Shown: piece by piece, positions 33,942 through 56,626 of the stretch
Layout: each line of letters opens with the position of its first letter
Position numbering within the stretch: position 1 is the stretch's first letter
DNA from: Oceanibaculum nanhaiense
GTDB taxonomy: Bacteria > Pseudomonadota > Alphaproteobacteria > Oceanibaculales > Oceanibaculaceae
Length of the DNA: 64,000 bases
Assembly (NCBI RefSeq): GCF_002148795.1
Contig: NZ_MPOB01000002.1
Location: 62,001-126,000, forward strand
Reading direction: 5' to 3'
Translations under genes and position numbers: made by a program
Notes under the pieces: model-generated
What the model was told of the DNA's origin: nothing
What the model saw: the letters and a program-made list of their open reading frames with translations, nothing else
The model's database searches: none

Positions 33942-34904
33942 ATGGCACAAGACACGGCTTTTCCTGATCTTCCCGGCAGCGAATGGGGGCTGGGCGATGA
34001 CAGCCTCGCGGCGGAGATCGCGCCGGCGTTCGAGGTCTTGCGCCCGGAGTGCCAGCGCCTGCCGCTGGTCTTCGCCTCGCCGCACAGCGGCAGCGTCTAT
34101 CCGGAATCGCTGAAGGCCGCCTCCCGGCTCACCGATCACGCCCTGCGCAAGTCGGAGGATTGCTTCGTCGACGAGATTGTCGCCGCCGCACCCGGTCTCG
34201 GCGCGCCGCTGATCCGCGCGCTGTTCCCGCGCGTCTATGTCGATCCCAACCGCGAGCCGTTCGAGCTGGACCCGGCGATGTTCGACGGCCAGCTACCGGA
34301 CTACGCCAATGTGCGTTCGCCGCGGGTGTCGGCGGGGCTTGGGACCATCGCGCGCATCGTCGCCGATGGCGAGCCGATCTACCGGGAAAAGCTGCCGGTG
34401 GCGGAGGCGATGCGCCGCATCTCCACCTGCTACCGCCCCTATCATGCGGCGCTGGCCGGGCTGATCGCGGAGACGCGGCAGCGTTTCGGCTTCGCGATCC
34501 TGGTCGATTGCCATTCCATGCCCTCCACCGGCCTGTCGCCGATCGGCAGCGGCCCCTACGAGCGCAAGGGCGGTTTACAGAAGGGCGGGCGTATCGACAC
34601 GGTGCTGGGCGATTGCTTCGGCACCGCCTGCTCGCCGGCGGTGAGCGAGCGCTGCGAGGCGCTGCTGCGCGGGCTGGGCTATTCCGTGGTGCGCAACCAC
34701 CCTTATGCCGGCGGCTACACCACCCGGCATTACGGCCGCCCGCGCGAGGGCGTGCATGCGATCCAGATCGAGATCAACCGGTCGCTCTACATGGATGAGC
34801 GGCAATTGCTCCGCAAGCCGCACCTCACGGTGCTGGCGGATGAGATGCGCACCCTGATCGAGGGGCTGGGCGAGATCAACCTGAACCTGCTGGCTGCCGA
34901 ATGA
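33942..34904 (+). CDS. N-formylglutamate amidohydrolase family protein
   Basis: A 320-residue protein of the N-formylglutamate amidohydrolase family, which hydrolyses N-formylglutamate at the end of one histidine-degradation route. Conserved segments include FASPHSGSVYP, VYVDPNREPFELD, VDCHSMPS and HPYAGGYTTRHYG, with His, Asp and Glu suited to metal binding. No hut genes are adjacent, so a general deformylase role is possible. The acetyltransferase gene downstream starts inside its stop codon (ATGA), so the two are cotranscribed. Confidence 0.88.
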   Translation: MAQDTAFPDLPGSEWGLGDDSLAAEIAPAFEVLRPECQRLPLVFASPHSGSVYPESLKAASRLTDHALRKSEDCFVDEIVAAAPGLGAPLIRALFPRVYVDPNREPFELDPAMFDGQLPDYANVRSPRVSAGLGTIARIVADGEPIYREKLPVAEAMRRISTCYRPYHAALAGLIAETRQRFGFAILVDCHSMPSTGLSPIGSGPYERKGGLQKGGRIDTVLGDCFGTACSPAVSERCEALLRGLGYSVVRNHPYAGGYTTRHYGRPREGVHAIQIEINRSLYMDERQLLRKPHLTVLADEMRTLIEGLGEINLNLLAAE

Positions 34905-35440
34905 ATCTCGATACCGTTGTCGTCCGCGACGCCCTCGACTCCGACATCCCGACGATCCGCGCCATCTATGCCCATCATGTGCTGCACGGTCTGGCCAGCT
35001 TCGAGGAGGAGGCGCCCGACGAGGCCGAGATGCGGCGCCGCTTCCACAGTTACAGGGATGCCGGCTTTCCCTATCTCGCCGCCAAGCTGGGGGGAGATCT
35101 GGTCGGCTATGCCTATGCCGGCCAGTACCGGCCGCGCCCCGGCTACCGCTATTCGGCGGAGGATTCGGTCTATGTGCGCGAGGGGATGGCCGGCAAGGGC
35201 ATCGGCCGTGCCCTGCTGTCGGCGCTGCTGACGCGCTGTACCGAGGCCGGGTTCCGGCAGATGATCGCGATCATCGGCGACAGTGCCAATCATGGCTCCA
35301 TCGGGCTGCACAAGGCGCTGGGCTTCGAGAGGGTGGGCACCATCCGATCGGTCGGCTTCAAGCATGGCCGCTGGGTGGATAGCGTGCTGATGCAGCGCGC
35401 GCTGGGCGAGGGCGATTCCACCCTGCCGCCGCCGCGCTGA
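34901..35440 (+). CDS. GNAT N-acetyltransferase, phosphinothricin acetyltransferase-like
   Basis: A 179-residue GNAT enzyme. The acetyl-CoA-binding motif is seen as VREGMAGKGIGRALLSALL, followed by MIAIIGDSANHGSIGLHKALGF and a FKHGRWVDSVLMQR end, which are typical of Pat/YncA-type enzymes acting on amino-acid-like amines. Coupled by a 4-base overlap to the amidohydrolase gene, so both may act on acylated amino acids. The true substrate cannot be told. Confidence 0.88.
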   Translation: MNLDTVVVRDALDSDIPTIRAIYAHHVLHGLASFEEEAPDEAEMRRRFHSYRDAGFPYLAAKLGGDLVGYAYAGQYRPRPGYRYSAEDSVYVREGMAGKGIGRALLSALLTRCTEAGFRQMIAIIGDSANHGSIGLHKALGFERVGTIRSVGFKHGRWVDSVLMQRALGEGDSTLPPPR

Positions 35441-35461: not shown

Positions 35462-35491
35462 AAAAAAATGGGCCGTGCGGTTGCACGGCCC
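35462..35491 (-). terminator. Rho-independent terminator of the sRNA
   Basis: A perfect 9-bp stem GGGCCGTGC/GCACGGCCC with a 4-base loop, followed on the minus strand by ATTTTTTT. On the plus strand the hairpin has no T-run, so it works for minus-strand transcription. Confidence 0.85.
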
Positions 35492-35549
35492 AAGTTTAGG
35501 GAGGAAACGCCCAAAAGTGCGTACGACAGAGGACAAGGTCATGTCGCAC
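35462..35549 (-). ncRNA. mmgR: putative trans-acting sRNA, mmgR / alpha-r8-like
   Basis: A complete sRNA unit on the minus strand. After a 5' hairpin (35549 to about 35517) comes a single-stranded TTTCCTCCCT (35507-35498), then a strong 9-bp GC hairpin and seven T's. The 10-mer TTTCCTCCCT between two hairpins is the hallmark I know from the alphaproteobacterial alpha-r8 sRNA MmgR, which limits polyhydroxybutyrate storage in Sinorhizobium. The motif can pair with ribosome-binding sites. A consensus promoter lies at the right distance. No protein is encoded. The 5' end is estimated from the promoter. Confidence 0.78.
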
Positions 35550-35554
35550 TGCAA

Positions 35555-35583
35555 AATATGATCCTCGTCTTTCGGCTTGTCAA
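35555..35583 (-). promoter_or_regulatory. sigma-70 promoter of the sRNA
   Basis: TTGACA (35583-35578), a 17-base spacer and CATATT (35560-35555) on the minus strand. Transcription would start about 35550-35547, just ahead of the first sRNA hairpin. Confidence 0.7.
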
Positions 35584-35927
35584 CGCATTCTCTTGTGAAA
35601 AAAGATAAGAAAATCATGGAATCCATAGCGCGTAATCCTGTGAAAGAATTAACTTTGCATTGCAGCATAATCGGTCGCGTGGTGCGGGGGACTCGGTAAT
35701 CATCATTCGCATTCGCCCCGCCGCCATGATCGGCAGAACGCGTTCCGGCAGAATCCAGGTGGTTGCCTTCGGGCTGCATATGTTATTTTACTGAAGTGCC
35801 GGGCTTGCCTGGCACAGGCCAGAAATAACCAAGAAAACGGGCCCGCAAAATCGACGGCGTCCGCTCCCGCGAAAAGAACGGTTTCATAGGGTATTGCGAC
35901 CCCGCTCAGCCGCGTGGGGTTGCCTTG

Positions 35928-37163
35928 ATGTGGGGTTCGGCGGTGACAGAAAATGGCAAGCAGGCACCTGCGGCGGGGGCAGCCATGCAGGGGGACGTGC
36001 ATGGGGACATGCAGGGAGAGCTGATCGGGCGGGCGCTCGACGCTTCGGATGTCGGGGTGGTGATCTATGATGCGGCGGACCGGCTGGCTTGCTGCAATTC
36101 CGCTTTCCGGCAGTTTTTCCCCGACTGGTCGCCGCATTTCCGGATCGGCCGGTTCCGGCGCGATATCCTGCACGATTGTCTTGCCTCCGGGATGCTGCCG
36201 CCGAAGGGCGTCGAATCGGGCGAGGACTGGATCGACCGGCTGGTGTCCGAACGGCGCCCGCCCTGGACCAATCCGGAGCAGCAGCTGGCCGACGGGCGCT
36301 GGCTGCGCGGCGAACTGAAGCTGCTGGAGGATGGCAGCATCCTCGTCACCCAGGTGGACATCACGGTCGAGAAACAGCGCGAGATGACTCTGCTGCTGCA
36401 GCGCAGCGAGGCGGAGCGGTCCGAGCGCAGCAAGACCGAATTCCTGTCGAACATGACGCATGAGCTGCGCACGCCGCTGAACGCGATCCTGGGCTTTTCC
36501 GAACTGATCATGAGCGAGGTGAACGGGCCGCTGGGCGATCCGCGCTATCGCGCCTATGCCGCCAGCATCCGCGAGAGCGGGGATTATCTGCTGTCGATCA
36601 TCAACGATCTGCTCGACATAGCGAAATTCAATGCCGGCCGTACCCAGCTGGCCGAGGCGCGGGTCGATCTCGCCGGCATCGTCGCGGCGGTGGCGCGTAT
36701 GATCGAGGGGCGGGCCCAGCATGGCGCGATCGATTTCCACGTCGCGCTGGAGCCGCCGACCCCGGACCTGCTGGCCGACGAAAGACAGCTGAAACAGATG
36801 CTGCTGAACCTGGCCTCGAATGCGGTGAAGTTCACGCCACCCGGCGGCGAGGTCCATATCGCCGGCGTGATGACGGAGGAGGGCGGCTACGCGCTGACGG
36901 TCCGCGATACCGGCATTGGCATGGCGGAGGCGGATATCCCGGTGGCGCTGGCGCCGTTCGGGCAGATCGATTCCTCGCTGGCGCGCGGCCATCACGGCAC
37001 CGGGCTTGGCCTGCCGCTGGTGAAATCGATGATCGAAGCGCATGGCGGCCGGCTGCTGCTGGTCAGCCGCCCCGGCACGGGCACCACTGCGACCCTGCTG
37101 TTCCCGGCCCGCCGCGTGCTGACCGACCGCGCCGCCCCCGCCGGCGAACAGACGGCGAAGTAG
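35928..37163 (+). CDS. PAS-domain sensor histidine kinase
   Basis: A 411-residue cytoplasmic kinase: an N-terminal PAS domain (about 30-140, VGVVIYDAADRLACCN), a coiled segment, a HisKA box with MTHELRTPLNAILGFSE (His178) and an HATPase domain with NLASNAVKFTPPGG, VRDTGIGM and GTGLGLPL. No membrane helix is visible, so the signal is probably cytosolic. No response regulator gene is adjacent, making it an orphan. ATG 35928 is taken as start because GGGG lies eight bases upstream; GTG 35943 is possible. The 490-base region upstream contains the sRNA and an AT-rich stretch that probably holds its promoter. Confidence 0.9.
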   Translation: MWGSAVTENGKQAPAAGAAMQGDVHGDMQGELIGRALDASDVGVVIYDAADRLACCNSAFRQFFPDWSPHFRIGRFRRDILHDCLASGMLPPKGVESGEDWIDRLVSERRPPWTNPEQQLADGRWLRGELKLLEDGSILVTQVDITVEKQREMTLLLQRSEAERSERSKTEFLSNMTHELRTPLNAILGFSELIMSEVNGPLGDPRYRAYAASIRESGDYLLSIINDLLDIAKFNAGRTQLAEARVDLAGIVAAVARMIEGRAQHGAIDFHVALEPPTPDLLADERQLKQMLLNLASNAVKFTPPGGEVHIAGVMTEEGGYALTVRDTGIGMAEADIPVALAPFGQIDSSLARGHHGTGLGLPLVKSMIEAHGGRLLLVSRPGTGTTATLLFPARRVLTDRAAPAGEQTAK

Positions 37164-54525: not shown

Positions 54526-54636
54526 GGATAGCCTCTCCCCCGCGTTCTTGGTGCCGGCACTCTACGCGCTGCGGCGGGGCGAGGGTAGCGCCCTCACGCC
54601 GGTTGACACCGCCAATCCTCTGACGCCATCATGCCG

Positions 54637-56626
<1,990 letters not shown>

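Follow-up and report, generated by a model that had tools for sequence, protein, structure and literature searches.

An FGase-linked alpha-r8 (MmgR/SisA-type) small RNA gene in Oceanibaculum nanhaiense and its candidate targets

Introduction

What is encoded in the gap that separates a GNAT acetyltransferase gene from a PAS/histidine kinase gene in Oceanibaculum nanhaiense, and what would its product regulate? The window, the whole stretch of 64,000 nucleotides that was analysed, carries in this gap an mmgR-like unit on the minus strand (35583-35462). The reading favoured here, with a probability of about 0.86, is that the unit encodes a trans-acting small RNA (sRNA) of the alpha-r8 family (MmgR/SisA type), linked to an N-formylglutamate amidohydrolase (FGase) gene, which would repress nutrient uptake and catabolic genes through its seed.

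Anatomy of the unit

The promoter, 5' hairpin, 10-mer and strong terminator described in the initial annotation were all found, and its coordinates and elements are correct (Table 1). The ends of the RNA, about 88 nt apart, are placed by the promoter and the terminator. The 88-nt RNA folds at -38.5 kcal/mol vs -20.1 in shuffles. When both strands were searched, TTTCCTCCCT at 35507-35498 was the single copy in the window. Judged by its sequence, the unit is a real, well-conserved and hitherto unannotated alpha-r8/mmgR sRNA gene that is presumably transcribed.

Table 1. Coordinates of the sRNA unit, its parts and the neighbouring genes in the window
Feature	Position	Strand	Evidence
FGase gene	33942-34904	+	PF05013, E 2.5e-77
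GNAT acetyltransferase gene, between FGase and sRNA, convergent with sRNA	34901-35440	+	PF13420/PF00583
Rho-independent terminator, seven U	35462-35492	-	terminator scan; stem of 10 pairs (35492-35469), then seven T
alpha-r8/mmgR small RNA, ~88 nt	35462-35549	-	RF00519 match; fold z -5.9
10-mer UUUCCUCCCU, anti-Shine-Dalgarno seed	35498-35507	-	sequence
5' hairpin GUGCGACAU...GUCGUACGCAC	35517-35549	-	predicted fold
sigma-70-type promoter TTGACA-17-CATATT, near-consensus	35555-35583	-	consensus scan, 10/12 bases; TTGACA 35583-35578, 17-nt spacer, CATATT 35560-35555
PAS/histidine kinase gene	35925-37163	+	

The sRNA is overlapped by a 330-codon minus-strand ORF (35779-34787), so the unit might be taken for a leader or a small ORF instead of a trans-acting RNA. 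That ORF, however, crosses the GNAT gene in antisense and stems from mechanical listing. The RNA ends in a strong terminator with a covarying stem, and its family has been characterised as non-coding. Reading the unit as a leader or small ORF is therefore highly improbable.

Family assignment

A search of the whole window with the covariance model RF00519 gave a match at 35541-35455 with 54.5 bits (E 1.9e-8; gathering score 41), and the family 10-mer UUUCCUCCCU is matched exactly within it. The alpha-r8/MmgR identity that had been proposed for the unit is thus borne out: the covariance-model match, whose absence would have spoken against it, is present and lies above the curated cut-off. RF00519 goes by suhB in Rfam, where its description reads Makes More Granules Regulator RNA. 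Elsewhere in the window, a TPP riboswitch was seen at 54634-54742 (78.6 bits vs a cut-off of 54.3).

Three known RNAs invite comparison. With MmgR of Sinorhizobium meliloti (RF00519, formerly suhB), the RNA of the window shares one family by covariance model, the 10-mer, the hairpin and the terminator, but MmgR is 77 nt long and the window's RNA, by its deduced ends, ~88 nt. NtrC/AniA control has been reported for MmgR of this species. With SisA of Caulobacter crescentus, also alpha-r8, it shares the FGase-linked locus, UUUCCUCCCU, the intrinsic terminator, an Hfq-bearing host and extra covariance-model matches in the genome; unlike SisA, it has a longer 5' hairpin replacing the weak proximal one. 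AbcR1 and AbcR2 (alpha-r15) are alike in action, with anti-Shine-Dalgarno seeds and predicted targets rich in transporter solute-binding proteins, but they form a separate family of ~114-120 nt with two seed motifs and tandem copies beside lsrB. The locus of the window has one copy and one seed, and its neighbours are FGase, GNAT and histidine kinase genes.

Gene linkage and conservation

The FGase gene is one gene away from the sRNA. FGase linkage is a reported signature of the alpha-r8 family, usual but not universal (PMC12559287); of 59 homologue loci, each covering ~3 kb and biased towards the best scorers, 37 have an FGase gene within ~1.5 kb. The order FGase-GNAT-sRNA recurs at three loci of the genus and at L009, L018, L125, L128, L129, L137 and L150, which include several other families.

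The unit is also present in the three other genomes of the genus, so that 4/4 carry the gene. These four genomes do not differ in promoter hexamers, 5' hairpin or 10-mer, while the promoter spacer and the sequence farther upstream have diverged. A genome of another family (G031) keeps the outer stem of the 5' hairpin with an altered inner stem. The 10-mer is invariant in 34/34 aligned homologues, nearly all FGase-linked, in a hand-picked set whose members were mostly found or selected with a model that rewards the 10-mer and the structure. Across these 34 homologues the terminator stem covaries, with both-side changes in 6 of 9 pairs and 96.5% of cells paired vs 81% in shuffles.

These data also bear on a simpler reading, in which the hairpin does no more than terminate the convergent GNAT gene and the 10-mer lies on the opposite strand by chance. 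Located 29 nt beyond the stop codon of GNAT, the hairpin could serve as the end of both transcripts. The T-run, however, is confined to the minus strand, the promoter, 5' hairpin and 10-mer are conserved, and in other genomes the sRNA gene stands beside FGase without GNAT. On the conservation of the elements and the strand of the T-run this reading was rejected, its chance of being right being very small.

The 5' hairpin and access to the seed

In most homologues a GCCC-loop-GGGC hairpin directly precedes the 10-mer. In the genus the left arm reads GCAC and stands at the foot of a 5' hairpin that is longer and farther upstream than that of the family. By the predicted folds, the small GCCC/GGGC hairpin appears eroded, with the longer upstream hairpin in its place. 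Folding predicts that the GGG thus set free pairs with the CCC of the 10-mer; in the full-length RNA the unpaired probability of CCCU is 0.15, and the UUUCCU part is predicted to be free (0.94). For the other homologues, whose folds began at the Rfam start and lacked their upstream portions, the CCCU value is mostly >0.9; in the same shortened form the genus RNA gives 0.74-0.76. The seed is accordingly predicted, from energy parameters alone, to be partly self-paired in the genus.

Taxonomic range and further copies

The initial annotation expected the unit to widen the range of the family. This fails because alpha-r8 has been published as present across all Alphaproteobacteria but Rickettsiales, and the host genus is itself alphaproteobacterial. 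Of 289 genomes sampled evenly from the class to which the window belongs, 126 reach the curated RF00519 score and 159 match at E 0.001 or better; both are lower bounds, since strict filters were applied and at most 15 candidates were scored per genome.

The window's genome (G000) holds three more RF00519 matches, all below the cut-off. One (L002, 1501-1577; G000:C4:415234-415310) scores 39.8 bits, has GATTCCTCCCTAAACTTGGGCCG and is kept in a sister genome, G003 (L032, 41 bits). Its sequence makes it a credible sibling and a probable second alpha-r8 copy. Another terminator-like hairpin precedes it. In Caulobacter there are four siblings, SisA-D (PMC12559287).

The two weakest matches in the genome, L003 and L004, are without an intact 10-mer, and L003 falls within the 3' end of a gene. 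At L003 (1501-1574; G000:C3:45272-45345), just after a stop codon, a CTTTTCCTCCTGAAA-like stretch occurs twice ahead of a strong terminator; this may be a CUCC-motif RNA derived from a 3'UTR.

Candidate targets

Exact AGGGAGGAAA occurs at 12 sites in the genome. One is the antisense strand of the sRNA gene itself; among the rest, six precede an ATG by 2 to 5 nt. When GGGAGGAA followed by ATG within 2-8 nt was sought, 30 sites and 24 ORFs of >=75 codons were found. Solute-binding proteins, as named by Pfam, account for 8 of these 24 genes vs 1 of 34 controls (p 0.0025), a trend already noticed in the first six sites before the enrichment test was made in G000; the controls are genes with one of two other strong Shine-Dalgarno patterns before the start, found by pattern searches. 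In two sister genomes (G001 and G003) the counts are 14/62 vs 0/17 (p 0.023), a repeat that is not independent of G000 because orthologues are shared. These 14 are the ones that resemble the eight solute-binding proteins of G000, and the counts by Pfam family suggest a few more. As GGGAGGAA is also a good ribosome-binding sequence, the enrichment may have its source in the strong translation of abundant binding proteins and could arise without the sRNA.

In each of the two sister genomes, three GGGAGGAA start sites lie within ~4 kb (L164, L168 and L172 on G003:C1; L323, L324 and L325 on G001:C7). This cluster, which includes a branched-chain-type solute-binding protein and a permease, was not seen in the window's genome.

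A sponge of the CrfA type, known for SisA, was sought for the window's sRNA among the exact AGGGAGGAAA sites and none was identified. The single site in a strong hairpin, L120, was rejected because this hairpin, read on the other strand, terminates a short gene and carries UUUCCUCCCU in its loop. There (L120, 1501; G000:C8:90610-90619) TTTCCTCCCT occupies the loop of a strong terminator hairpin immediately 3' of the short ORF, whose sequence resembles, by eye, that of a DUF1127 protein. The arrangement recalls the CcsR RNAs of Rhodobacter, which lie downstream of the DUF1127 gene ccaF1. Other CUCC-bearing RNAs of the genome could use the same target sites.

Proposed mechanism

The sRNA would be transcribed from its own sigma-70 promoter and stop at the intrinsic terminator, whose U-tail very likely binds Hfq. 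The 10-mer UUUCCUCCCU would then pair, probably with the help of Hfq, with Shine-Dalgarno regions of the GGGAGGAA type, and the pairing would block translation and speed mRNA decay. With periplasmic solute-binding proteins and catabolic enzymes as its likely targets, the RNA would act as a brake on nutrient uptake.

In Caulobacter, SisA represses its targets through the 10-mer, compensatory mutants in a heterologous reporter confirm the pairing, and Hfq helps SisA to anneal to its sponge CrfA (PMC12559287). In Sinorhizobium, MmgR depends on Hfq and restricts PHB granules, an effect for which the 10-mer matters (PMC7143759, PMC12559287). Both an Hfq gene and PhaC genes are present in 4/4 genomes of the genus. 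Repression by SisA through the 10-mer, the Hfq dependence of MmgR and these genes together make the same mechanism the default inference. Control by anti-Shine-Dalgarno pairing, as predicted in the initial annotation, is thus a sound expectation for this RNA, shown by experiment for its homologue SisA (PMC12559287).

The granule phenotype of MmgR and the PhaC genes of the genus also suggest another division of labour, in which the gene is a real alpha-r8 gene with its main role in carbon storage (PHB) and the solute-binding genes are not targets. Yet no pha gene is found among the Pfam-named genes of G000 preceded by GGGAGGAA, and a direct target of MmgR is not known. A main role in PHB storage is considered unlikely; it would nevertheless be compatible with the FGase-linked uptake regulator preferred here, as both concern carbon use.

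Significance

The value of these results is mainly that of annotation: a regulatory RNA that has been studied well is located in a marine genus of Alphaproteobacteria. They also provide a short, conserved list of candidate targets, the solute-binding proteins of TRAP, ABC and tripartite tricarboxylate transporters. A more specific proposal, put forward tentatively and with doubt prevailing, is that the alpha-r8 RNA of the genus combines a remodelled 5' half (a strong distal hairpin, a lost proximal hairpin and a partly self-masked seed) with service as a dedicated solute-binding-protein brake. If so, it would do the job that in Rhizobiales belongs to the AbcR (alpha-r15) RNAs.
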